Source: Eutypa lata
Lineage: Eukaryota; Ascomycota; Sordariomycetes; Xylariales; Diatrypaceae
Length of the DNA stretch: 64,000 nucleotides
Reading direction: 5' to 3'
Assembly: GCA_022661535.1 (NCBI GenBank)
Contig: JAKULF010000008.1
Coordinates: 1,116,001-1,180,000 of the forward strand
Part shown: positions 1,583-46,856 of the stretch, piece after piece
Position numbering within the stretch: position 1 is the first letter of the stretch
How the letters are laid out: each line of letters opens with the position of its first letter
The notes under the pieces: model-generated
Databases searched by the model: none
What the model saw: only the letters and a program-made list of their open reading frames with translations
What the model was told of the DNA's origin: nothing
Translations under genes and position numbers: made by a program

Positions 1583-4500
1583 ATGAATCAGGGAACTCCC
1601 GTTGTGTCCCTCGCGATGGAGACCTCTGAGGAATCAAGCATGACAATGCCCTACGGTTTACGCGACACCACAACATCCAATGATCGGGGATCAGACAAAG
1701 AATTCATTCTTAATGAAGATCTATGCCCGCAAATGACCTACGGATTTGAAGGATCCGTGGCAGCTCCGTCATCGTCTGCAGCAAGGGGCGAGCACAGTCT
1801 ATTGCGGAAGCCTCATTCTCGCAGAAGCCATCATACAGCAGCCGAATGGGAAGTCGTGAAAGAGACTGTCGAAAGATTGTATCTTGAGAATGATTACACC
1901 CTTCCCACTGTTATGGACATTATGTCAAAACCCCCCTACAGCTTTCACGCCACGTCAGTATCTTAGCTCCATGAGTTCTCATTTCTCAACTTACAATTAC
2001 ACAAGGATCAATATGTATAAGAAGCAATTCAAAAAATGGGGATTCGAGAAGAATGTGACCCAGAAACGGACCTACAAGCTTATGAATAATGATACTGTTA
2101 CAGACAGTGTTCGAAAGTTCATTGGTATGGACCGGATCGGCCAATATTTCAAACGACGGAAGGCTGTTCATGATGCGGCTACCATCATCCCTAACCGTAA
2201 GTACTTTTCGTAATTATTTTATTCCCTTTACAGTTAGCTTAAGTGCTTGAGGTTACTAGAAGGGGCATATCTGGGAGCAAAATTTCACGAATAACTCCCA
2301 CATTTCGTTAAGATACGTGATTGCTAACTCTAGTTGTCGTAGTTCCTGAGCTTGCCGACACTATGTATATTCCGCCAGTCGAGCTTGACAATACGGAAAT
2401 AATGTTAAACGAAAGGGTCGATAACCAGTTATGCGCTTATGCTCGGGCAGGAAGTTGCAAGTTCAGAGTTGAGATTGCTGATGAGTGTGTCCAAGCTCGT
2501 TGATATTTGTTATGCAGTACCACGAACTGACTGGCTTTTAAGGATTGACGGTGTGCCTACCATGTTCTACGCTGACTCCTGGGGATCTCATGATTACCGT
2601 CCACTTATCGAGCGGAGCTGCCCGGAAGAATGCCCCTGTCGATTGTTCTGCGACCGAAGGTGTTTCCCTACAATTTGCCATGTTTTTCGCGTCCGTTGTT
2701 ACCAAGATTCTATCATTGTCGACATCCAAGAACCTAAACTAATATCCAACCTGAAACAAATCATCAACAAAGCCGATCCCTTTCAAGGCATGGAATTGAA
2801 ATCTTTGTTAGGTTCAGGGGAGGTCGATGGAAGGGCCTTGCTTAAATATTACTCCAAGCTAAGAGATTTTGTTGACAACCCTGATCTTTCAGCCCTGTAT
2901 TCGCAAGACGACAAGGGCGAGCTATTATTGTTTACGGAATTCCTTGAAGACGTTGACATTTGGGACCGAATTGGTCTCGAAGAACTAGCTGATGCAGGCT
3001 TCCTAGAACCTGTTTTGCTAGATAAACTCCTTAATCAGCGACTGAGGCGTGGAATACGGACCCTAGACAATGCATTCAAAGCAGTTGATGCGGCTCGCAG
3101 ATACAACACGATACCTGAGAAAACCACCTTCGACTATGAAATCAACGATTTTGCCTTTGACGACGCCCAATTTCATCCGACCCCCATATTTGAACTTGAT
3201 GGAACACCACAATGTCCGAATCCAAGCCCCAATATTACTTCGGAAGGCGTTGCTCCAACTCAAGAAATGAATTTTCCTCCTGTCGACAAACTGTTGAACC
3301 AGCTCCCAGGTCACTACATAGTTGATGGCTTCTATGATAAGCTTACGGAAGAATATCCTCAGCTTCTCCATGTCGTCTCACGGCCGCCAGATCTACCACT
3401 AGTCTTCGGTGAAGAACTTCAAGGAACCTTTATGGCTGAGAATTTTCATCAGCCTGGACATCAGCCAGAGAACCTCCTATATGAGCAAGAACATAATGAC
3501 CTGAATAGTAGGCTCCTTGCTGCGTGTATGTCTGGGACTCTAGGTGTTGTCACCTCCCTTTTAGGCCAGGGAGCATCGCCAAACTGTCAGATTAAGGTTG
3601 AAGGCAAAACTTGTTCGCCACTTATTGCCGCTATTGAAGCCAACATGGATGAAGAAACTCAAGATAAAATCGTTAGCCACTTAGTTCTCAAGGGTGCCGA
3701 CATAAACGGTAAAGGCTTCATTGAAACCACCACAGAAAGGTTGAAATACACGGCACTATTTGCCGCTGCGAGAGCTGGCAATATCTATATGATGCAGCGT
3801 CTCCTTGAACTTGGGGCCGACATTAATGGACTCTCAACAAGGGAAATGGGCCTATATCGATCCACCATTACCCCATTGAACGAGGCCGCACGCCTAGAAA
3901 TGACAGAAGCCTTCAAGCTCCTCTTGTTTTGGGATACATCCTACTCTTCTGGTCTGAAGAAAGTCGAGATGACCACCGACAAGGATTCCCCAATAACCTC
4001 AGTGCATACGCTACTTGATATAATGAAGAAAGGATCACAGTCGAGCCTCGTACAGCTGATTAAAGACGGAGTAGATATCAATACGCTTTCTTTCCAAGGA
4101 ACGCCCCTGAGCGTGGCCGCCAGTAACAATCAGCCACACAAAGTCAAACTCTTACTAAATCAAGGGGCCGACGTGCATTTGGCGTCACTCTATCTTTCAC
4201 GGTCCGGTCAACTGAATGCTGCGAAAATGTTGGTTAAAACTGCGTATGGAAGTGCTTCTGGATCTCGAGCCAATGTCCACACAAAGTTTACCCAACACTA
4301 TCAACGGCTGGTAGACATGTCCCAATCGTCCCAGTCTATCCAATTGCGAGCATTCAAACACCATTGCCAGAACTACCACCAAGCATGGTCTATCGGCATA
4401 CGACTGATGGATCGAATCTGCTGCGGAAAGGCTCCGGATGGCCCTGCCCGGCTACCGGAAACCCTTGCGTTCCTCGCCGTGGCACGGGCTGTAGCGGAAA

Positions 4501-5420
4501 GTTCAGCTGGCGATACCGGCGACATATCTCTGATTGACAAGTTCGACAGTGACCTCCTGAGATGGCAAATGATATTCCCGGAAGGAGCGGACCTTGCTCA
4601 GTATCGCGAAGCTGTTCTTTCGTTATGGGGCGTCGATCTCTCGGGAAAATTCTTCCTAGACCTCGATTACGACGATACGGAGACTCTTGGACGGTTTAAA
4701 GGGATTATTTCTAGGATCATAGACGGGGCGCGCGGGCCGCTTGATTTGGACAGCTCCCCTTCTAATGGCTTGAACGAGAGCTATACGAGATGGCGCCAAC
4801 GCCGTCGCGAACCATCGAATATGCCGATTTCTCACTCTATTCCAACTGGCATCCCCTCACCCCATGGAAGGCCCATAGATGAAGGAGGGTTGTTCCCTTC
4901 CGCAACGCAAACATCTCATGATGCGGGCGCAGTGGCATGCCAGCCGAAAATGGACCGAGAAGAGATCTTACAGGCCACGAAGTGGGTTTCCGCGAGGCGG
5001 GACAAATCCGTAGCAGTCTTTTTCTTCGACGTGACAGGCGTTGCAAATGACTTGATACGGGGTGTGATATTCTCCATTGTCTTTGTATTCATTCATGGTA
5101 CGTTTTATCATTTTTTAGAGCTTGATTGGTAAATGTTATATCAGTTGCTGACATACACAGGACTGAAATCACTTCCGAAGCTATACGTCAAAAGAGGGTT
5201 CGAGATCGTAGAGCGATTCGTGATCTTATTAAAGTTTCTCGGGTTCCTCAAGTCCCTAGAGACGATCTCATCCGGTTCCACTAGAGTTAGAGCGACAGGG
5301 AATTCAATTGACGACAGGGACATGGGAATTCCGCAGCTAGGTCTAGAGGCTGGCTCTGGAGGGGAACCATGTAATCAATGGTACAGTCTCTTTGGATGTG
5401 ATACTGGGTCGTGGATATAA
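1583..5420 (+). CDS. Clr5-domain ankyrin-repeat protein
   Basis: Five exons: 1583-1953, 2006-2196, 2334-2453, 2518-5097 and 5161-5420; phases agree and give 1173 residues. The intron at 1954-2005 splits a Clr5 domain (about residues 83-145). It has the family's Trp-Glu start, a Leu-Tyr core, a Tyr-Lys-Lys-Gln-Phe-Lys-Lys-Trp block and a Lys-Asn end. The long fourth exon carries ankyrin-type repeats at roughly residues 555-800 (LLELGADING, LLNQGADVHLA). Near the C-terminus is a hydrophobic stretch of about 25 residues (GVIFSIVFVFIHG) that could be one membrane span. Clr5 is a short N-terminal module found on many fungal ankyrin and TPR proteins; its biochemical role is not settled. The intron at 2454-2516 has a weak donor (gttgca) and is the least certain part. 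Single long-exon structure suggests a recently expanded accessory family. Confidence 0.8.
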
Positions 5421-31589: not shown

Positions 31590-32668
31590 TCAACTTCCTC
31601 GACCAATACCCTGAGCGCGACACACATCCATTGTATGGAAGCTTGTAAAGCCTTCTACCAAACCAGACGCATGCGCCCACATCCCGCATAAGATGGCGAC
31701 ATGAAAGATCTGGTGTGAGCTTCCCCAAATATCAAATTTCCCCGGTGCCAAACGCTCCGGAATCCGAAACTACAACTGTTCGTCAGATGGTCATCTTTCA
31801 TGGAACGAAATGGGCATGAAGCGTGGTGACATACCGCATACATGAGGACACTGGTGCCATAGAAAAAGATTTCAAGCAGATACCAGTCCATGCCAGCGTA
31901 CTGGAGCATATACTCGGACCCGTATCGCTGAGCTCCATGCAGTAGGTGTATAAACGATGTGGCGCCGAAGACGATAAAAGCGCTCACTTTTATTTTCCGG
32001 CCGCGCGCTGTTCTGAGCGAGGGTTTCGAAATCAGGATACCGGTGATACTGCCCGTGGTCCAGTTCTGGATCTCATGTCAGCATATGGCTGGACTGCTGG
32101 GAGGGTTGGATGGGAGACTGACAATAGCCCAGTGCACCTTTCGCAAGTTCGGCTCACAGAAGAACAGATAATAGATGCCGGATGTGAATGTGCCCACTAT
32201 AACAATGATAATACCCAGCAAATCCATGCCATGCCAGAACAGTTCTACAACATGGGAATGGGATTGCATCAGGTGGTAGAATACGCTTAAGATCAAACAG
32301 ATTTCCGCACAACAAAAGAAGATTACAAACATGGCATAGTCTATGTACGTGACATCAAGGTATTGGGGCCCGGCTAGGAACCAGACGTAGCTAGTCGCGA
32401 ACAGTGGTAAGAGGAGAGCTCCGATGAGATGTGTGTATACGTTGCAAGTCTCATTGTGCAAGAACGTAAGGCTCATGAAAACCTGCCGGTAACTTCCTTT
32501 CGCGGGCCGATAGCCGCTGAGGATATACTTGTTGTCGAACTGCCACTCAGCAATCTCCTGACAGGTCACGGTTTGCGGGATAGTAGCACTTGACGGGTTC
32601 ACGGGGTCGTTGGTGGTGCTCATGTCGAGTTTCGGCACCTGCCGTTTTTTGAGTTCTGTTGCTGACAT
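31590..32668 (-). CDS. PAQR / hemolysin III family membrane protein (Izh-like)
   Basis: Three exons: 32668-32123, 32071-31835 and 31769-31590; 320 residues. The PAQR family has seven membrane spans and includes adiponectin receptors and yeast Izh proteins, which act in lipid and zinc homeostasis. Visible signatures: the N-terminal GYRP followed by [16 protein letters not shown], the [12 protein letters not shown] block with the first metal-binding His and a nearby Asp (GMDLLGI), and the C-terminal [13 protein letters not shown] with the two other metal-binding His. Several strongly hydrophobic stretches lie between. Zinc-dependent ceramidase-like activity is known for some relatives. An in-frame region of 60 codons lies upstream of the chosen ATG but starts with TTG and reads like 5' UTR, so the ATG at 32668 is preferred. 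Confidence 0.92.
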
Positions 32669-33874: not shown

Positions 33875-34705
33875 ATGTCTTTCTCAAAGACGTATTTTCT
33901 GTGCCCAACGACCGATTTCATCCATCCACCTCCAGTAGGTCCGCTATGTCTTGGATCTATCATACCTTCCACGTCAACACCACAATATCCTCTCAATAGG
34001 GCGGAAATCGTTGCCGTGGCTAACCCACTCCCATCTGTTGTGGAGACCGACTGGAGGAAGACCATTTCAACCGAGACAGGGCTTGGGTTGGGGGTATACG
34101 CAACCTTCCTGCAGCTGGCCATTGGTCCTGAAGTGGGCGTTGAGCGTTCAAACAAAACTGTGCATACGTTCGCATTCGACGCAGTGACGACTGTGGAGTT
34201 TGAGCCGACGAAAGAGTATGTCGAGCAAGCCATCAAGGCAGCCGCCGTGCAAGCGTGGCTGAGGCAGCCCAAGCAACGATTCGCGCCTGTTGCCTCGCTC
34301 TTCCTCGTCACGGGTATGAAGCTTGTGAAAGGCGCGAGCCTCAAATACTCGACTTCACGGAGTGTGGCGGCTACTGGGAACTTCAGCATCGACTTGACCG
34401 CACTGGGTGTGCTGGGCACGGCCGTCGGTCCCAAAGGCCATTGGATCAGCGCGGAAGAAGACGGGACAGAGCTCAACCGTGAATCGGAATTTGTGTTTGC
34501 GTTCCGTGTCAAGAGACTCAAGTTCGGGTGGAAAAACAAGGTTGAAGACTACAATAAAGGCGCTTTCTTAAATGTTGGTGGGGATCGAGAAGATGACCGA
34601 TTTGTTCTGATTGAGGACGTGGACGGGGCTAGTATCGAGACTGCGGAGGCTGTCCCTGATGTGACTGAGAACGGCAGTGTCTATTGCGTCCCCCCTCAAT
34701 CATAG
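33875..34705 (+). CDS. Gasdermin-like cell-death protein (HET-Q1/RCD-1 type)
   Basis: Single exon, 276 residues, nearly the length of Podospora HET-Q1. I recognise it from the N-terminal pattern KTYF followed by DFIHPPPVGPLCLGSII and a PLN, from the alternating beta/amphipathic pattern around residues 90-220, and from its partner gene. Fungal gasdermin-like proteins are cytoplasmic precursors. After removal of a C-terminal piece of about 5 kDa they assemble in membranes and kill the cell in heterokaryon incompatibility. Here a Lys-rich segment (RVKRLKFGWKNK) and KGAF at about residue 231 precede an acidic tail of about 45 residues (GGDREDDRF onward), which is the natural candidate for the removable part. 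The stop is 87 bp from the stop of a subtilisin-like protease on the other strand. Recognition is from memory of the family rather than alignment. Confidence 0.72.
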   Translation: MSFSKTYFLCPTTDFIHPPPVGPLCLGSIIPSTSTPQYPLNRAEIVAVANPLPSVVETDWRKTISTETGLGLGVYATFLQLAIGPEVGVERSNKTVHTFAFDAVTTVEFEPTKEYVEQAIKAAAVQAWLRQPKQRFAPVASLFLVTGMKLVKGASLKYSTSRSVAATGNFSIDLTALGVLGTAVGPKGHWISAEEDGTELNRESEFVFAFRVKRLKFGWKNKVEDYNKGAFLNVGGDREDDRFVLIEDVDGASIETAEAVPDVTENGSVYCVPPQS

Positions 34706-34792
34706 CATCACGATAGGAATCCCTGACAGCCAGCCGAGATAACAGTCAAGCATATTCAATTATAAATTATTCAGAACCTCTTTAATAAGTCT

Positions 34793-37700
34793 CTAGTCGT
34801 ACATGTGCCTCCTGATATCCTTGATCTTGTCGTAAACACGCTCCCTTGTCGACAATGTATCAAAGAGTACATGAGGCGTGATATAGTCATAACCTGCCCC
34901 CCTCGTTTGTCGGACCATACTCTTGAGAACCGCATCCATTGAATGGACATCTTTCAGCCACGGCCCAAGCAACTCACTTTCAATTGTCTTATGCTGTTCC
35001 TGCTGCCGGACGAAGGACAGCACTGTCCCGGCAAGCCCGGCAGCAATCGGTGTCGCGACCGATGTCCCTGACATGGTATTGACCGGCTGATTCCAGCCTT
35101 TCTTGCCGACTGGCCAGTGAGAAGAGACGTGCTCTCCAAGTAGACTGAAGTTGACATCTTTGTCGTCTGCTGTCGGGTTAAAGGTAGAGGGGTTGCCATT
35201 ACCATCCGTTGAGTGTATACAAAATACGCTGGGATATTTTGCTGGGAAAGCCCTCCCAAGGTTTGCTCCATCATTTGATGCCGCAGCGAACAACAATGTC
35301 TGTTTGTGCAATGCGTTGGATATGGCAGCTTTCATGGGCTCGTTGTATTCACGAATCCCAAATGACATTGATATAATGTCCACCTTCCATTCAGTCACTG
35401 CGTAGTTAATAGCCTGCACGAACAGTCAGCTCAGTCCCCAAAATCGGTTCTGGTATACAGCCGGCCTTGCCTTTACAATGTCATCGTAAGTGTCACGGTT
35501 CAATGTTTCTTGGTGCGCAATTTTAGCGACGTAGATCTCAGCGCATGTGGCAACTTGAAGCAAGAGACCAAGAGCATGAGTGCCGTGCCCGATCTCGTCT
35601 CGAATGTGGTTTGACTCTGTTTGATATACGAAACTTCGCGCACCCTTGATTCGTGGATCCAATTGCTGGTTTTCGGTCATCAGAAGTGGATTTTCAGGGT
35701 CAAATCCCGAATCCAAGATTGCTATTCGCACCGGTTCGAACCCTCTGCGCTCGGGTTCGACGGTATCGAAAGGGTCAACATGATGATGAATCGAGGACAG
35801 CAGACTGTCCATCCATCTTTGCGAAAGTTGATTACTGGGGAGTTATTAGCAAGGTAAAGCTTTTATAACCACGGATGACCAGGAAACAACTCACTCTTGT
35901 TCACCACCCGTCTGGTAGCTTGCATCGAAAAAATGCACGCTCTTTGTTGATGTCTCCGCCGCTTGTCCACGGAGTTGCGATGTCAGAGAAGGCTGCACTG
36001 GCATCTGTAGCGTCATGTCTGGGTTGAGGGATGTGTGGCTCATGGTCGCGGAGTCAGACATCGAACGATGCGGGAGTGCTCGCGCTGCATTATCCGTATC
36101 AGAGGAATCAGCGTCGCGTGTTTGATGGCGGACAACTTCTCGGCCAATCAAACCCCAGCAGAGTTCATTCTCTCGTGAGTCGAATGAGTCCAAGTCTTCT
36201 GATCGAAGACGCCACGACTTGAATATCTCAGCCTCGAGTCGTTTGACAACGTTTTGATAGAATAGCCGCTGTACGCTGATTGATTCGAAGTCAGCCTGTT
36301 GCCCAGGGGGATAGTACTCCCACTGTAGGCATGCCTTCGCAGCGAGATAGTAATCCACGCCAGCATCAACTTCTAGAGACTTCAGCATATCAAGGCTGGT
36401 ATAATAATCAGTATTGACGCTCCTGGCGGCATCCGAGCCCTTTTGCATTAGCTCCACGGGTGTGCAGTAGTGAAGTTCACACAAGAGTATGCCTAGTGCT
36501 AATACACTAGCATTAGGGTGAACCATGTGTTTAGAACTGTCACTGTCTCCGATGTCTGCTTTTCTGGCTGAGATGATTGGGATATGCTCCATGGACAAAA
36601 AGGGTTTTGTGATGTCTGGAAGTTCTCCATCTTGCAGTGGCTGGAAGAACCGAATCTTGGAGTGATTGAAGGAAGGCTGCAGCCATGGCGTCTCTAAGAA
36701 GGGAAAGAGCGCTTTAGCCAGTGTTACTGCCAAGATCCGTTTCCCCTTGAGCGGCAGTACAGATGAACTACCACGCAGTTCTTGTTGACGGGTAAATAAA
36801 TCTGACAAAGACACCGTCCCAGACATTCGATCACCGCCAAAGTTCATTGGCTGCGGGCGAAGCCGCTGAAACATTCCATCTTCGAGAGCCAAGTGCAAGC
36901 AATGACGTTGACCGAGTGACTCTGTAATGCTTTGGCATATGTGAGCAAAGGTGGATGCAGTACTAGGTGGAGGCAAGGATGCGCTCCTGTGCCTGCTTTG
37001 CTGTAGGTCTCTAGAGCGGAAGTGTCAGTGAAAATCGTCGCGCGAAGCTTGAGAAACATACTTGACCGTTATTTTAGCTTCTTGTAATGTGGTTGCCAGT
37101 AGGGACCTTACGCCGAAAAATATCTCGAAAGATGTCTCAACCTCGAAATCCTTCTTCTGTTGTGGCATTGAAAGTCTTACGCTCAGCCCTGAGCACTTCT
37201 GACAAACACATACCCAGTGTTGTCGTAACGCGTTGTCTAAGGATACCAAGTGCTTCCTTACCAACATGGCGATGTCGGGATAAGGGTCTTCGGTGACGTT
37301 GCTGGTGTTTGGCTCCTCGCGAGTAAGAAGTCGGCGCTTCTTCGCCTCCTTTTCTAAATGTGAAAGCTCCTGTATGACGGCCTCACTTTCTCTCCTCCGT
37401 TTACTAACGCGGATAGCAGTGCCTGGAGTGTAATGCCCATCGTGAACTGGACGCTCGATCCTGCTGCGCACCGTCTGGAGCTTTGGATACGGCACATCGA
37501 GGGGTAGGCTCTGCTCCGCAACGTTATGTAAGTAGGCAAGAAACGAGAGACCGGAAGACTGGAGCTTCTTGCACATTATAAGCACTTACAGAGTCCGATT
37601 CTCGATCCGAGTCGTGTTGGACATAATCTTCGAACGCGCGCAGCGTCCTCGCAAGACGATCGGGATCAATTTCGTCGAAGTCATCACTGTCATGTTGCAG

Positions 37701-37832
37701 AAATGCATCCGTGCGTAGCCAGGCGTCGCGCGCTCGCGATTTCAGTGACGCGGGCGCTGGTCTTTCCGGCGGTCTCCGCGCGAAGAGCCCAAGTACGGTC
37801 TTAAGCAGACCCTTGGAATCATCCTGTTCCAT
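34793..37832 (-). CDS. Subtilisin-like (S8) serine protease, HET-Q2-like
   Basis: Five exons: 37832-37590, 37510-37062, 37010-35895, 35834-35471 and 35413-34793; phases agree, 930 residues. Residues 1-600 form a large N-terminal region. Part of it looks like the DUF7580-type domain of fungal NLRs and proteases (FAHICQSITESLGQRHCLHL, and ILLCELHY near residue 420). The C-terminal third is a subtilase domain with a full triad: Asp about 644 in VRIAILDSGFD, His about 686 in EIGHGTHALG, Ser about 842 in MSGTSVATPIAAG, and the oxyanion Asn about 772 in AAASNDG. There is no signal peptide, so it should act inside the cell. The intron at 35414-35470 starts with GC (AAG|gcaagg) rather than GT. It is convergent with the gasdermin-like gene. 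Fungal gasdermins are typically paired with such a protease that cleaves them. Confidence 0.88.
35414..35470 (-). other. Probable GC-AG intron in the protease gene
   Basis: The 57-nt interval must be removed to join DDIVK to AINYAV in the subtilase domain. Its best donor is AAAG|gcaagg, matching the known non-canonical GC-AG class. A GT donor six bases upstream (ATT|gtaaag) is an in-frame alternative that would drop Val-Lys. Confidence 0.65.
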
Positions 37833-38746
37833 GGCTGTAGATCATAGAGGGAGAGATTCAAAGATTTGATAACTGTGATTCAAATCGAGTCTATTGTGTA
37901 AGGCTAGAAGACATGTAGAAGGTCTGAGGTGGGGGAGAGCGTGCCACCCAGGAGTCGCGAACGAACAAGGCTTGGATGGACACGGAGGCTCCAGTCAAGG
38001 TCAAGCGAATCACCAAAATAGCGCTCATGCAGTAAGATTCCGCCCTGACAAAGCCACTTTTACGTATGAAGTGGTGTTGCAATATGGCCTGGCATGATAG
38101 CCAGGCCTGACAGGATGGCTGACAGGGAATTGGATGGCTGACGCTCACTGGATCACTGGTGAGCCGGCGATCGGATTACAGGGGCCATTTGCAAGCAACC
38201 TGAAAGGTAGGAGAGCCAAAGTGATCCAAGAAGCATCGGTTAGCTGTTTGTAGAATTCTTTGATCACAGGATATCATTCTTCAATTCCTGATCCGACAGT
38301 TCAGGTTTTCGAACACTTCCTCTACCACGCTGCGACTCACGAATAGGTAAGTGGCTATCTCACTACTTGCCTAGAGGTAGGTGGCCAACCCCCCTAGCCC
38401 CACCACCCCGGTCTCCCCTCCCGGGCTTTACGGACGTCGGTGAGGGGCCTAATGTACTCTGTAAGCGCGGCATTTGCGTCTACAACGGGCACAACAGCTG
38501 GGTACTGCAACCTCAAGGCTTGTGTAATACCTATGTACTTACCCAACTCAAGTGTTAAACACGGTAACTGTAAAGCCCTGTCAGGCTTTGATTTGGGTGG
38601 CGCATTTCTTCAAACAGTTTCATTAGATGCTTCACAGTAGACCTTGACCGCGACATGCTTGCCCACGACCTGTAGCCTAAAATATCTATACACAAAAACA
38701 CCAGCTCCGTAACATCTTTGGCGTACTGGTAAGGACTCGCCACGCC
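37833..38746. other. Divergent promoter between protease and ankyrin genes
   Basis: Head-to-head spacer of 0.9 kb between the S8 protease (minus) and the zinc-finger/ankyrin gene (plus). Only short unsupported open frames. A shared promoter region is possible. Confidence 0.5.
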
Positions 38747-41700
38747 ATGGAAAGTCTGGATCGCATTGAAGATGACCTGGACGACGTCTTCCTCCAGGAC
38801 AGCCTTTGCCCGACCATCGCAGAACACGCAACACAATGCAACGCTCTTTTTCACAAATACATGATGGTGGCGGAGATCGTGTCAGACCCTACTATCATCG
38901 ATGACCAGCTAGCACGCTTTACGCTATGGGCATCGAACATGGACGTTTGGGGACCGCTCAATGTTTCGTTGGACTATAGACTCCGGTTCAGTCCTACAGT
39001 CGTGGGCATTATACACCAGCTCTTGGACGTCATTTGTGATAGCTTGAATTCTTGTATGTTAGGCACCTATCGCACCAAGTTCAGCCAAATTAAACGTCAA
39101 GAGATTAATGCTAACGGGGGCCTCGACAATAGTAAAGCCAATTAACGAACCTAAACGGCCTCCAAGCAGGAAGCGACAACGGTTGTCAGAACACCATGCT
39201 CCGGATAGCGCGAGAAGAGTCGATGACGATGGGAGCGATTTTGAGAGCGATTTTGATCAAGCAGAAGAGAACATCTCCAAGATCACCGATACAGTTGGCG
39301 GGACCGTGACACGACTCTTCCGTCTGTCGAATGCTGTCCGAAAGTCCGCAAAAGCCAACCGGGTTCGCAAAATGGCGCGGTACAGAGACGACATAGAAGC
39401 GAACAAAGCCATCGCTGAAGTGCGTCTCTATACAGAGTGCTACATTCGTTTCCGATTTCCGATGGCGCCTGATTCCCTTCGCTCAGCACTGGTTGAAGCT
39501 AATGCGCAGCGACTTCGACGACTGTATTATCAGCGGTCCCATCGAAGGCGTATTGGTCTGAGCAGCCAGGGTCCATACAAGACCCCAGCTGCCAACCAAC
39601 TACCCAAGATCAAGGAGAGTGCCCCGGTTGTACGATTTGCTTCGAGCTTTCTGCCAAAACCTGCCACCGTTGATAGGATATCGGGACTAGCTGGCCCTCC
39701 GCCAATGCCGTTGACTAATGCAACTACCGCTCAACAAACGGCTGTTGGAGCTTTATACGCCAGATCTACAACCGAGGTTCCCCGGGCTAAGTCTATTCTA
39801 GTGAACAACAAGTTAGCCTTTCCTCCAATCCCGCCGACACACGAGTGTCCATACTGCGGCGTCATTATCGAATTCAAGAACCATTCGAAGTCAACGATAT
39901 GGCAGTAAGTAAATCATCATTATTCTTCTGATAAGCAATGTTTAACATGACCCAGGACACATGTCATCGGAGATCTAGAGCCGTTTGTCTGTGTTTTCAC
40001 ACACTGCTTGCAGGCGGGTCAACATGGGTCAGGTCCACTATTAACGTTTGAAACGTCGAAGGCCTGGATCAACCACATGCAAAACGCTCACGGGCATACA
40101 TGGGAGTGCAGAGCTCCTTCTCACGATCCAATCATCTTTGATGAAGAAATCCAGTATCAGGAACATTCTATCAAAGAGCATGGCGTGCCTGAAATGCATG
40201 CCGGGATCCTCAGCAACGCAGCACGGAGACCAAACATTGAGAAGGTGCTGGAGTGCCCATTTGGCGATGATTTCCAGCACCCAGACAAAGCCGAACCCAG
40301 CACCGTCTTCGCGAGTGAAGCGCTTCAGTTACATGTCGCCGCTCATATCAAAGAAGTCGCTCTACTTGCGTTGCAAAAACTACCTAACGATGGTGTCGAA
40401 GATGCTGATGACGTCGCTAGCGATCAACCACCAGATGATGACATGCCGGGGCATGCGGGGTTGCGTGGATCCATGTATAGCATATTGGACGACGAAGCTT
40501 TAGATCTCCAGGACGACGAAGCCCCAGACTTCCAGGATGATGCCGAGGCTGTTAACCCTATTTTTGACTATCGGGAAGAGGACATTAGTCCATCGGTAGA
40601 GAGACTCGACCTAGAGGACAAAGACGACTCGGGAATGACAAAGCTTCACCACGCGGTATACGCCGGTAATTTGAACCTGGCTGAGTCATTGCTCTCCGGG
40701 GGCGCAAGTTTGAACAGCAGGGATAATTGCGGCAGGACAGTGCTGCATTACGCTTCCTTGAGCCAATATCATGATCATAATATGATGTCCCTCTTGCTAA
40801 ACGCTGGTAGTAAAGCCTTTATGAATCTAGGTGACGACAATGGCCAGACAGCCCTGCATTACACTGCAGAGAGGGGTTTCACCGAAGACATACGTATCTT
40901 AGTTGAACATGGCGTTGATATCAACACTACCGATAACTATGGCTTTTCTCCGTGCCTCTGGTCTGTGGTTTCTGCGCAATTTGAAGCCGTGGACTTGCTG
41001 TTGGCCAAGGGCGCCGATGTCAACTTACTCAGCGCAGAAGGGAAAACTGCGCTGGAGTGGGCAGCCAATCTGGGCTGGACCTCAATGGTTATTGTGCTTG
41101 TGCATTACGGTGTCGGCATATCCAGACATCGCAATGTGCAGGTCGGGATACTGGAAGAAGCGGCGGCTCTCGGCGACTTGAACGCCGCACGACTACTCCT
41201 CGCGTCTGGTGGGGATCCAAGTCAACGTGATCGTGATGGATGGTCTGCGATCCATTGGGCTGCGGAGGAGGGCCATCCAGAGATCGTAGATTTGTTATTG
41301 AAAGCAGGGACCAGCGTCGATGCTGTCAGTTCTTATGGCACGGCACCATTGCACTGTGCTGCCAACGGAGGACATGTTTCCATCGTGAGCTTGCTTCTTC
41401 TGGCTGGAGCAGACCCGCTCAAGTCAACATGTCACGGTTGGACTGCACTACATCACGCTGCATTCATGGGGCATTCTCGGGTTGTTCAGCGCCTCCTAGA
41501 AGACGACCGCGCCAGATCCGGGGCTTCTCAGCAGGATAATCATGGCTGGTCGCTACTTCATCTGGCCGTTCATAGTCGAGATCTCGCCACTGTCCAGGTC
41601 CTACTTGATGACCCTGCTATTCCAGAGCCTCAAGCCTTGATCGATGAAAGCGGTCATACCGCTGAGGAATGGCTAGATTTCAGGCCAGCTAGCCATTCCT

Positions 41701-42317
41701 ACAGAGCGACCAGTGACTTGGCGTTTAGCAAGTCGCGCTGCTGCAGGGTGGCCACCGGCTTACGACAGGCTGTCATCATAGGCAACATTCCTATGATCAA
41801 GCTCCTCCTGAGATTGGGCCACAACGTGAATGACACGAATTCCGGAAGAAGGACTGCGCTGTACTATTCCGCCAAGAAGAGCATGCTTTCCATCATGGAT
41901 CTACTTCTCGACAACGGTGCAGATGCCAATATCCTCCCAGCAGGACGCAAAAGCTGGGAAGAATTTATTTCCGATCGGAACGTTTTGCTACGACTCGATC
42001 GCGCTGGATACAAGAAGCGCGGCGACGACCCTGAGGTAGCGCAGCAGATTAGAATTGCACTCAGAGCGCAAGGCGTGCCCTCTGTTCAAAACCGATCAGT
42101 CTCGTTTGCACCGGTCGAGACTTTCCTACCGATATCACCCCAGTCCACCTCTTCTATCCCTGGTCGATCGACCTCATCTGTCCCGGCTCTGGAGGTAGCA
42201 TCTTCTTCGGACCATTCGGCTTCAATCACGCCAACCCTCCAAACAAATAACAATAAGCGCAAAGCGAAGTCAGCCCGGTCGGGCATATCGGGCTTTTGGA
42301 AACGGATATTAGGATAG
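38747..42317 (+). CDS. Zinc-finger and ankyrin-repeat protein
   Basis: Three exons: 38747-39053, 39133-39904 and 39956-42317; 1146 residues. The N-terminal 100 residues resemble the helical leader seen on many fungal STAND-like and ankyrin proteins (MESLDRIEDDLDDVFLQD). Around residues 345-500 is a degenerate C2H2-type region: HECPYCGVIIEF, then FVCVFTHC, WECRAPSHDP, LECPFGDDF and LHVAAHIKEVALLALQKLP, a known fungal arrangement. From about residue 583 to 1040 there are ten or more ankyrin repeats (GMTKLHHAVYAGNLNLAESL, GQTALHYTAERGFTEDIRIL and similar). The C-terminus is Ser/Thr-rich and basic. No NACHT or catalytic domain is visible, so it is probably a scaffold or partner protein. It lies between the protease gene and an NLR gene. 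Confidence 0.85.
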
Positions 42318-42881: not shown

Positions 42882-45800
42882 TCATGAACCAACAACCTGA
42901 GTTATCATACTTTCAACTCCCGGAAGTGAGTTTAGATGGGGTTTCAATCTCTGTGTCAATGCCGCCGCAGGCAGTCCCAAGCCGTACTGCTTTCCAATGA
43001 TGAGGCATTCCACAAGGGCTTTGCACGCCCTCCTCTGAAGCGGCCCTGGGGTTTGCTTTGATATCAAGGCACTCATCGCCTCGGGAAGCGCCTCGCCAAT
43101 CAGCCATTGGTGGGCCTCGGCATCCTCATGGCAGAGGATCAAGCACGACGCGCAAGGAATGTTGAGAAAACGGTCCTGTCCCTTCTCCTGGGAGCGCTGG
43201 GCAAACTGGAGGATACAAGTGAGGAAGTCAAGTAACCTGGGATAATCGTGGTGCTCGCTGATGGCGAGTAGCTCATCGGCGTATGCCTGACTGGTATCGG
43301 CAAACAATTCCATTTCAAGACTGCCGCCAATATATCCTTCGTAGAATTCTGCGATAACCCTGGAGAAGTATTCGATCGGCCGTGGTTCCTTGTTGTCAAG
43401 CATGGCGAATTGCGACGTCAAAAGCACCACCGCCCGAGCCACGTTCTCTTCTCGGTTGCCATTTCGGACGCTGGCATCGAACCCGTTTAAGAAATCGCGC
43501 ACGCCGTAATGCAAGAACTCCTCTGCACCTTGACTGTAAGCGATGGCGGTCATATCTGCGAATGCCTTGCCTGCGATGGCATCACCTTCTCTCCACCCTT
43601 CTTGAACAGCTGTGAGCTTTGCTTGCGACCCTGCCAGGACCCCGACTGCCAGCAGTGCTTGGAGGTCTCTAGGAGCGGCGGCTCTATATACCTTCGTCGA
43701 AAGACCAAACACGGTTGACAACCTTCCAGCGTTCCTCGCAAATATCAGCTGGCAAAAGAACCGTCGGTACGCTTCGGCCCATTGTCGCAGTTCGTCTGTT
43801 TTGTTCTCCTCGACGAGTTGCTGCAGTACGGACAAATGTTCCCAGCGATTGAATGCGAGAAACTTTAGGTACAGGGTCATAAACCGAAGAATGATGGGAA
43901 AGTGGAAAGAAAGGGTCAGTGCCTTCATGACCCTGTCAACTTTTCGCGACGCCTGCTTGAATCGCGCGAGAAATAGTTGTTCCTGAAGCCCCAGTAGCTC
44001 ACTCACCCGCTCTTCCATTGGAGCTGTAGGTCCTTTTAGGGAAGTAACTCCAGGGAGAGTTGGCAACTTGTGCACGCGCGCTCCATGTTCAAGCAATACT
44101 TGGACGACCTCCCTCGAATTCGTCTGGATGGCTCGAATCAGTGGTGTGTCGCCATGCTCAGTCTCACCCTCGAGAGGGGCCCCTCGATCGAGTAGCAGAG
44201 ATACAATATCCTTGTGCTGCCCACTGACCGCGATATGGAGTGCCGTCAGTTTGCTTCGATCTTTGGCATTGATGCGAGAGCCGTGGTCAAGCAACAGTTC
44301 CGCCATCTCTCGGTGGCCGCGATTGACGGCCCAGAAAAACGGCGTCCGGCCGTAGTTGTCCCTTCGCGAAACGAGGCGGGCATGCCCACCCATCAAAATC
44401 TTAGCCCAGGGTACATTTCCAAGGTACGCAGCGAGATGCAGGAGCGTGAATGAGGGCGCGTTGCCCCCGTTTTTCTCTTGCACCCAGTAGAACTTCCACC
44501 ATTCGTCCCGAATTGGAGAATCAACATCAAAGAACGGATGTGAGAGCTCGGACGATAGGTCAATCACATCGATGGCGTGATGGAAATGAACAGGCCAATA
44601 CTGACTGGCATAAGCCACGAGGGAGTTGTTACCGGATTCCTCGTCAATATTGCTTCCGTAACCACGTTCGATGTGGGCGAGACAGGTTCGCAGCAGAGTC
44701 CTGTGGGTGACATGGTCCATGCGGAACGTGCTGATCCCTTGAATGTTGATCTGGTCGCTCTGAAAGAACTCCTTCGCTGACTCGTGGACTAGGTTGACTA
44801 CATTTCCGTCGATTTTCACGAGTAGGCCGCATAACCTGAGCCGATTCTTGACCACTTGAGCTGCTGAGAAGGTACCGGATGCCTCGATCCCCGTGGCAAC
44901 TGTCAATTCGTCTATCGTAAGGGGTCGAGCAGCGAGCACAATCCACTGAAGAATGGGTACCAGGGCTTCCTTGTCGTCGATCTGTTGAAGGAGTCGCTGA
45001 TAAACTCCACCAAGTCCTTTAGGAACACGTTGGAGTATTTCATCAATTTTACTCCAGCTCTGGCCTTCAAGCTCATTGGTAACGAACCCAACCCACAGGA
45101 AGGTACCGTTAGCGCCAGCGAACAAGGTCTTCTGAACCTGCGCAACCATTTCTTCCGAAAGATTTTGTGCCGTCGCTAATTCAGTGACTTTGGCGACAAT
45201 GTATCTCTCGACATCGTACGAAATCTCTGTACCGGAGTCGTCCAGCTTGATCTGTTGATATCGGTTAAGCCTACTCTCCAAGACAGCTGGCTGAGGTCGA
45301 GAAAGGAGAATGAGCTTTAGCTTTGGCTGTCCCCGAGATTTAGACAGATAATTTCCAATGGCATCCAGGAGCTGCCTGAGAGATTCTTTTTCGCATTCAT
45401 CCAAACCATCCAGCACGCAGACTACCTGGGATGTCTTACTCTGTTCCAGCAGGGTTTGGAAAACCCTCCACAAGGAGACAAAGCTTGAAACAGTGTACTT
45501 TGTTGTTTCAGTTCCCTCGAAGGAGGCTTTGATGTACTGGGCCAGGTGCGGATGGAGATCGATCCATTGGTGTATAATGCCTCTCAATATCGTCAAAGCG
45601 GTGTTCCGATTTTTATCACGGTTACTACAAAAGTAGTAAAGGAGGACATTACCAGCGGCGTCAATCACTGGCTGCAGTGTTTCAGTGATATAAATCGCCA
45701 GCATAGTCTTTCCCTTGCCAGGACCACCTGAAATCCAGAGCAAGGGCACATTGGAATCGGCGTCTACTAGCCATTTTTGATAGCTGGGGTGCTGTATGAG

Positions 45801-46856
45801 CCATTCGCAGGTGCCGTCAACTCTGCGCCCTTTCAATGAGATGAGGGACTTTCGGTCTACTTTGGGTCTGGTCAAAAGCAAAGCGTCGAGGACCGGCGCG
45901 GCCTCGACATATGCGTCGACAACCAGCGGTTCCGCCTTGGGGACCGTGGGAATGAAAGAAAGGATTTCTTTTGCATATGCCGCAGCGGCTACTGCAGCGT
46001 ACGCATGCCAAGACTTCGAACTATGCGAGTCTGCGTAGTCGCAGATCCCTCGGATGAGCAAGTACTGGGCATCTTTCAGGCCAGCCGCTGCCGTGTCCAG
46101 GCAGAGAACGCTTTGCTTATGCGCCAAATTATCCCGAGTGGCTCCCGGAAGACGCGTCAAATTGCGACCAGATGCAATTCGGCCGTAATGGACTATAGGA
46201 TCCTGTGTCTCTCGTGGCCGTCGAGGTCGGATCTTATCCGGGTCGCAAAGATGGCATCCGTCTTCTTCGGATCCGATGTTTGTGTGAGTATAAGTCGACT
46301 CAAAAAGGACATCTTCCTCAGAACCATGATGGGCAAAGGTCGTAGGGTCTTTCCGCACGATCTCAGAGACGTACTGATGCAGTTGGCTTTCAGCGAAAAT
46401 GGCGGCCGTTTCAGTCTTGCCCGTAGCCGTGAGGAAAAACGATGTTGGCTGATCTGACTGGTCTTCCGATCGCTCGCCGTTTGCGTCACATTGGATGACA
46501 CTCCGAGTGCCGGCTGTCGACTTGCTTACAACGACGTCGCCAAGTCGAATATCCTCCTTCGTGTCTGGCACTCCCCCCGCAATGCCGACCATGAGATTGA
46601 ACCGGATAGATTTGAAGCGCGCACGCAACTGCGTGGCAACGCCTGCCACCGACGTTTCCCCATACACGCCGTGATCCGGATACGCGAGTACAACGTTGTG
46701 GCCTCGGAGACTCCCTAGAATGTAATTGTTACTGTCGCCGCCGTTCTGATCGGGGGTTAGGGTGTCGTGGATGCGATCGAGTGTGGCCTTGGCTGCTGCT
46801 GCCTCTACGGGCAGTGCGCAGACCCACCCGACCGAGTAGTCGTCGGGGGACGCCAT
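42882..46856 (-). CDS. NLR-type protein: nucleoside-phosphorylase-like head, NACHT, ankyrin
   Basis: Single exon of 1324 residues. Residues 5-300 form a PNP_UDP_1-like domain (YSVGWVCALPVEAAAAKA, FNLMVGIAGGVP, YLLIRGICDYADSH, AYAAVAAAAYAKEIL), a common N-terminal effector or sensor head of fungal NLRs. A linker (LKGRRVDGTCEWLIQHPSYQ) leads to a NACHT NTPase with Walker A at 376-384 (SGGPGKGKT), Walker B at about 480-487 (VLDGLDE) and an LILLSRPQP sensor. Ankyrin repeats follow at about 803-930. The last 390 residues have no recognised fold and are mainly helical in composition. Fungal NLRs of this kind govern heterokaryon incompatibility and are thought to detect non-self. Proximity to the gasdermin/protease pair is suggestive, but the protein has no protease domain of its own. 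Confidence 0.93.
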   Translation of the reverse strand: MASPDDYSVGWVCALPVEAAAAKATLDRIHDTLTPDQNGGDSNNYILGSLRGHNVVLAYPDHGVYGETSVAGVATQLRARFKSIRFNLMVGIAGGVPDTKEDIRLGDVVVSKSTAGTRSVIQCDANGERSEDQSDQPTSFFLTATGKTETAAIFAESQLHQYVSEIVRKDPTTFAHHGSEEDVLFESTYTHTNIGSEEDGCHLCDPDKIRPRRPRETQDPIVHYGRIASGRNLTRLPGATRDNLAHKQSVLCLDTAAAGLKDAQYLLIRGICDYADSHSSKSWHAYAAVAAAAYAKEILSFIPTVPKAEPLVVDAYVEAAPVLDALLLTRPKVDRKSLISLKGRRVDGTCEWLIQHPSYQKWLVDADSNVPLLWISGGPGKGKTMLAIYITETLQPVIDAAGNVLLYYFCSNRDKNRNTALTILRGIIHQWIDLHPHLAQYIKASFEGTETTKYTVSSFVSLWRVFQTLLEQSKTSQVVCVLDGLDECEKESLRQLLDAIGNYLSKSRGQPKLKLILLSRPQPAVLESRLNRYQQIKLDDSGTEISYDVERYIVAKVTELATAQNLSEEMVAQVQKTLFAGANGTFLWVGFVTNELEGQSWSKIDEILQRVPKGLGGVYQRLLQQIDDKEALVPILQWIVLAARPLTIDELTVATGIEASGTFSAAQVVKNRLRLCGLLVKIDGNVVNLVHESAKEFFQSDQINIQGISTFRMDHVTHRTLLRTCLAHIERGYGSNIDEESGNNSLVAYASQYWPVHFHHAIDVIDLSSELSHPFFDVDSPIRDEWWKFYWVQEKNGGNAPSFTLLHLAAYLGNVPWAKILMGGHARLVSRRDNYGRTPFFWAVNRGHREMAELLLDHGSRINAKDRSKLTALHIAVSGQHKDIVSLLLDRGAPLEGETEHGDTPLIRAIQTNSREVVQVLLEHGARVHKLPTLPGVTSLKGPTAPMEERVSELLGLQEQLFLARFKQASRKVDRVMKALTLSFHFPIILRFMTLYLKFLAFNRWEHLSVLQQLVEENKTDELRQWAEAYRRFFCQLIFARNAGRLSTVFGLSTKVYRAAAPRDLQALLAVGVLAGSQAKLTAVQEGWREGDAIAGKAFADMTAIAYSQGAEEFLHYGVRDFLNGFDASVRNGNREENVARAVVLLTSQFAMLDNKEPRPIEYFSRVIAEFYEGYIGGSLEMELFADTSQAYADELLAISEHHDYPRLLDFLTCILQFAQRSQEKGQDRFLNIPCASCLILCHEDAEAHQWLIGEALPEAMSALISKQTPGPLQRRACKALVECLIIGKQYGLGLPAAALTQRLKPHLNSLPGVESMITQVVGS

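Follow-up and report, generated by a model that had tools for sequence, protein, structure and literature searches.

How a fungus can carry a gasdermin-like protein beside the protease expected to unleash it, and what might set the pair off, is the question raised by a 64,000-nucleotide stretch of Eutypa lata DNA (contig JAKULF010000008.1, positions 1,116,001 to 1,180,000), hereafter the window. Gasdermin-subtilase neighbours are known in fungi, and the pair itself is of an already known kind. An earlier note, made from the sequence alone, had read the locus as a probable two-component death switch of the het-Q1/het-Q2 type. We followed up this reading within one genome (54.5 Mb in 29 contigs, numbered here from C1, the window lying on C11) and against PDB, Pfam and PADLOC. 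The genome was searched in six frames, and the counts given below are therefore lower bounds.

The first requirement of any such switch is a gasdermin. The 276-residue, single-exon frame with the start quoted in the earlier note indeed runs uninterrupted from 33875 to 34705 on the plus strand. When its product was compared with PDB sequences by phmmer, residues 8–215 (33896..34519), the alignable part of the presumed pore-forming domain, matched RCD-1-1 (8jyz_A) with E=1.2e-7, and all four matches at E <= 1 were to RCD-1. The paralogue on C5 matched the solved HET-Q1 pore chain 9uv9 at 3.7e-6, with an unrelated entry at E 0.19 as its sole other row. A profile built from the three paralogues of this genome found only five PDB sequences at E <= 10, every one of them an RCD-1 or HET-Q1 chain (RCD-1-1 at 1.5e-15, HET-Q1 at 8e-9). 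The PADLOC bGSDM model matched the proteins from the window, C5 and C7 at 6e-4, 5.3e-9 and 0.032, respectively, the last value being for the second exon only. A Pfam scan of the 276-residue protein assigned no family. The AlphaFold2 model made from a four-row alignment does not have the quality needed to establish the fold (pLDDT 34.8), whose assignment therefore rests on sequence; RCD-1 structures took ranks 1–3 when that low-confidence model was compared by VIA-align, which is weak agreement and not proof. Judged by its matches, the open reading frame is a fungal gasdermin. The profile comparison with RCD-1 and HET-Q1 that had been proposed for it gave matches, and the refuting outcome named in the earlier note, no structural match to the gasdermin fold, did not materialize at the sequence level.

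The acidic C-terminal tail that had been described is also present. Residues 233–276 (34571..34702) include 11 D/E and 2 K/R, the tails of the C5 and C7 gasdermins are likewise acidic, and this segment is presumed to be inhibitory and removable. At its junction with the pore domain lies a GAFL motif (residues 229–232, 34559..34570) that reads GAML in both paralogues, with G229, A230 and L232 invariant in the alignment; this conserved motif may mark the cleavage region. A second candidate position, F243, lies inside the tail. In a scan of viral contigs with the window gasdermin no relative was found, a result that says little on distant viral kin because the scan reaches close relatives only.

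The second component lies tail to tail with the first, at a stop-to-stop distance of 87 bp, and occupies the minus strand from 37832 to 34793. Four introns with GT..AG ends are needed to assemble its coding sequence, and the four splice models tried yield proteins of 928–935 aa. Comparison with the C7 paralogue favors 928–929 aa, so that the length of 930 residues given earlier is close but not exact. The preferred model has five exons (37832–37590, 37510–37062, 37010–35895, 35834–35477 and 35413–34793) and encodes 928 aa. On the spliced protein, Pfam identifies DUF7580 (2.1e-29; residues 165–493, 36224..37261) followed by Peptidase_S8 (PF00082, 7.3e-23; residues 638–866, 34982..35731). The Asp/His/Ser triad is intact by motif, as had been claimed, with D644, H686 and S840 as its members and N769 at the oxyanion position.

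Are the two genes true partners or only neighbors? Each of the three gasdermins, used as a query (for C7, the second exon), recovers the same three loci, namely those on C11, C5 and C7, and none further. The genome holds 44 places with S8 matches, falling into 35 groups, and 22 places with DUF7580 matches, which represent 21 genes since two of the places are pieces of one gene. All three detected gasdermins adjoin genes in which DUF7580 is fused to S8, and these are the only three DUF7580-S8 genes detected. They are also the only DUF7580 genes with a detected S8 within 15 kb, the nearest other S8 being 15.5 kb away. Under random placement, the chance that three gasdermins would all fall within 5 kb of three fusion genes is approximately 1.7e-10. 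The pairing is not due to chance, and the partnership with a subtilase first proposed for the window recurs at two paralogous loci of the same genome. That figure, together with window genes that keep open frames, triad motifs and introns with GT..AG ends, and with gasdermins at C5 and C7 that are open and spliceable, makes it hardly credible that we are dealing with chance neighbors or with a decayed relic, and we found no point in support of either. On the DUF7580 tree, which needs two changes and has long branches, the three DUF7580-S8 genes may or may not share one origin.

A close counterpart of the pair is Podospora HET-Q1/HET-Q2, where a gasdermin of ~280 aa, ending in a short tail, is likewise encoded alongside a dedicated S8 protease. 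The HET-Q1 pore 9uv9 is the chain matched above. Podospora het-Q1 and het-Q2 are reportedly alternative alleles carried by different strains. If the present locus were an allelic incompatibility locus of this type, death would follow only upon fusion of unlike strains. An enzyme-substrate chemistry that is apparently that of HET-Q1/HET-Q2 and the matches to the solved HET-Q1 pore speak for such a locus. We nevertheless hold this explanation to be highly improbable, since gasdermin and protease reside together at three loci in one genome, and simple antagonistic alleles would not survive there unrestrained. The het-Q designation of the earlier note therefore suits the chemistry and not the Podospora genetics, and the loci further differ from HET-Q1/HET-Q2 in having a third gene in the set, which is described below. 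Neurospora RCD-1 (8jyx, 8jyy and 8jyz) belongs to the same gasdermin family by its pore-domain sequence, but is said to act through heterotypic contact of allelic products and without a protease, whereas the loci here include a protease and their gasdermin bears an acidic tail. Bacterial bGSDM operons likewise place a gasdermin gene next to a protease gene. In bacteria the gasdermin ends in a very short, palmitoylated tail and the protease is often caspase-like; the protease of the window, in contrast, carries the kinase-like DUF7580.

Since both genes are carried in one genome, the protease has to be kept inactive until a trigger arrives. We reasoned that a resident gasdermin and a resident protease cannot both be free, and that the simplest restraint would be the pseudokinase-like half of the protease itself. 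DUF7580 models as a protein-kinase fold (structure model with Foldseek), and two of the three distant DUF7580 members scanned also match Pkinase, below the Pfam cut-off. At the catalytic-loop position of the alignment, the window DUF7580 reads WLQPSFNHSKIRFF, in contrast to WIHKDI in L022 and WLQKDL in L023, and no DFG motif was seen in its row. Because a kinase fold is modelled and these catalytic motifs are absent, DUF7580 of the window is a predicted pseudokinase. Thus a Pfam domain of unknown function gains a predicted fold and a genomic setting. A natural bridge from DUF7580 to kinases is L023 (G000:C10:272628-273104), in which a region that looks kinase-like by eye is followed by a DUF7580 match in the same open frame. 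MLKL-type switches likewise join a pseudokinase domain to a killing output, which here is a protease rather than a membrane helix bundle. Human MLKL stands at rank 43 (E 0.13) in the Foldseek rows for DUF7580; it is not the closest structure, and the match is at the level of fold.

To see what else the gasdermin loci share, open reading frames of at least 50 aa were compared at E <= 1e-3 across 33 kb at C11, 30 kb at C5 and 30 kb at C7. Three genes are common to all three loci: the gasdermin, the protease and a gene with a zinc-finger block. These regions share no further gene, the only other common frames being antisense to the protease. The third gene of the window (38747..42317, plus strand) has exons 38747–39053, 39133–39904 and 39956–42317, the first intron being chosen among several possible, and encodes 1146 aa comprising an N-terminal domain, the finger block and ankyrin repeats. 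Its N-terminal part matches the C5 and C7 relatives at 3.5e-11 and 2.7e-5, and its finger part at 1.7e-7 and 9.5e-9. In an alignment of eight relatives, the N-terminal domain, encoded by exon 1 (38747..39053), has a pattern like LxRFxLWAxNxGV..SLDYRLR. The finger block (39843..40181, split by the 39905–39955 intron) follows CPYC..WQTHVxxDLxPFxCx4C..WxxHx4HxxxWxC..H, and ten of its columns (H, D, C, C, W, H, H, W, C and H) are invariant across the eight. In the pieces scanned, neither domain had a Pfam match above cut-offs.

At C11 and C7 the order runs from gasdermin (+) through protease (−) to finger gene (+), the first two lying tail to tail. In the window, the finger gene and the protease gene diverge from a shared upstream region of 914 bp (37833..38746), a presumed two-way promoter. 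The C5 locus has another order, in which the gasdermin faces the protease head to head; because the gasdermin gene sits between the finger and protease genes, these two cannot share a short promoter there. The third gene appears to belong to the gasdermin-protease set. Thus, of the two-component switch proposed earlier, the gasdermin and the protease are borne out, whereas the count of two is probably too small, given a third gene at all three loci.

The C-termini of the finger proteins vary. The window protein ends in ankyrin repeats (1.4e-66), with no NTPase in its Pfam list, the C5 relative in NB-ARC (6.1e-7) plus TPR, and the C7 relative in a segment with only a weak oxidoreductase match (E 0.072, below cut-off). 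At loci without a gasdermin, the C4 relative has a PH-like C-terminus (2.5e-5), the C6 relative bears ARID (6.2e-10) plus FHA (2.4e-8), and the C12 protein has a partial match to the ubiquitin-like ULD_2 at its end (9.5e-8). The ULD_2 stretch of the last (L036:1411-2172) also matches G000:C10:490511 and C21:348677, both of which are without a finger.

Across the genome, most finger-family places lie near a DUF7580 gene. Counting each query's own place, and calling a place paired if DUF7580 is no more than 5 kb away, the C5 finger query finds nine places, seven of them paired (6/8 without the query). The C12 query gives 17 matches, of which two touching only query residues 155–243 were set aside; among the other 15, 13 are paired (12/14 without the query). 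With the C4 query, for which a looser threshold of E 0.01 was used, 11 of 14 places are paired (10/13 without the query). The union of the three comprises 18 places, 13 paired with DUF7580 against a chance expectation of 0.06 pairs within 5 kb. Among the five unpaired places, C10:5638865 is a clear match, N-terminal domain included; C4:1009805, C5:4177588, C1:3302046 and C2:1449963 are weaker. By match strands, 12 of the 13 pairs are divergent and one (C6) is tandem. Viewed from the other side, a finger partner accompanies 13 of the 21 DUF7580 genes and is lacking for eight. Six of these eight are low-scoring and kinase-like in our reading of the matches, and five of the six, as placed in the tree, form one clade (98/97); outside this kinase-like group, 13 of 15 DUF7580 genes are partnered. 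For the other two, on C2 and at C5:4244287, one side of each was inspected by eye (L039 and L040), and open reading frames of at least 100 aa there had no finger motif. A few kilobases from the C2 gene, L039:4372-4998 encodes what looks, by a motif, like the end of a polyketide synthase.

Ten of the 13 pairs are without a detected S8 or gasdermin, and the finger gene is consequently not specific to gasdermin loci. This count suits an explanation in which gasdermin and protease form a plain two-component switch and the finger gene is a neighbor that travels with DUF7580 and acts elsewhere, for example as a nuclear regulator of the shared promoter. The ARID and FHA domains of the C6 relative fit this explanation too, and the ARID and C2H2 features among the relatives, which a nuclear DNA-binding protein might equally have, count against a role for the third gene in the switch, as do the unpaired places in both families and the differing gene order at C5. 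Even so, we judge the two-component explanation unlikely, because the trio is kept at three loci, the C5 and C7 gasdermins being 24–29% identical to that of the window, and because ankyrin repeats and NB-ARC plus TPR are found among the finger C-termini at gasdermin loci. Receptors carry such modules more commonly than transcription factors do.

We consider it probable, though well short of certain, that the three genes constitute a self-contained cell-death switch that runs from sensor through pseudokinase-held protease to gasdermin cleavage and pore. The finger gene is the likely trigger because no other gene accompanies DUF7580 so often. Its product would serve as sensor or regulator, with the variable C-terminus as receiving end, and would act on the DUF7580 pseudokinase of the neighboring protease such that the S8 domain is released or recruited. 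The protease would then cut the gasdermin close to where the pore domain meets the acidic tail, around residues 229–243. HET-Q1 is reportedly cut after a phenylalanine near its C-terminus, and the candidate sites here are F231/L232 and F243. The freed domain might oligomerize and form membrane pores, and so kill the hyphal compartment. A third gene with variable, receptor-like ends that diverges from a pseudokinase-protease gene would offer a concrete candidate for the trigger, and there are 13 finger/DUF7580 loci on which to test this idea.

The 13 pairs also allow a broader reading, put forward tentatively and with rather more doubt than belief, in which a finger gene whose C-terminal part can be swapped and a divergently oriented DUF7580 pseudokinase gene form a general, unnamed fungal immune platform present here in 13 copies. 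Sensor and transducer genes would mostly be transcribed from one intergenic region, and the killing output would be exchanged between copies, the subtilase-gasdermin pair being the output in three. If this is true, DUF7580 in fungal switches would resemble an adaptor or the MLKL-type pseudokinase of animal necroptosis. Neither the third gene nor the paired platform is known to have been described, and both may be new. ORFs upstream of three DUF7580 genes without S8 (L036, L034 and L037) resemble one another in beginning with a hydrophobic segment, like SGFE.AGV.LG.IPL in two and VAGVALGALPIA in the third, which is possibly a membrane-active helix. These ORFs gave no convincing Pfam match, and the N-termini of three DUF7580 genes lacking S8 contained no HeLo-type domain by Pfam.

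Several other genes of the window were noted. A NACHT-ankyrin NLR gene (42882–46856, minus strand; PF24883, 2.1e-40) lies 564 bp beyond the third gene and was considered as a fourth part. It was rejected, as none of the 111 places with PF24883 at E <= 1e-5, itself included, comes closer than 100 kb to the gasdermin of C5 or C7, and it is not among the genes common to the loci. Its N-terminus resembles, by motif, a nucleoside phosphorylase domain, which Pfam does not list for this gene. An HlyIII/AdipoR-family membrane protein ORF (32078–32668, minus strand; E 2.1e-21) lies 1.2 kb before the gasdermin gene and had no counterpart in the 30 kb compared at either C5 or C7. A second ankyrin-repeat gene occupies 2439–5132 on the plus strand. 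Finally, as fits a filamentous ascomycete, the NOL10/ENP2 gene of the window scores 871 bits against entry 6rxu, presumably from Chaetomium thermophilum, and 489 bits against entry 5wlc, presumably from yeast.
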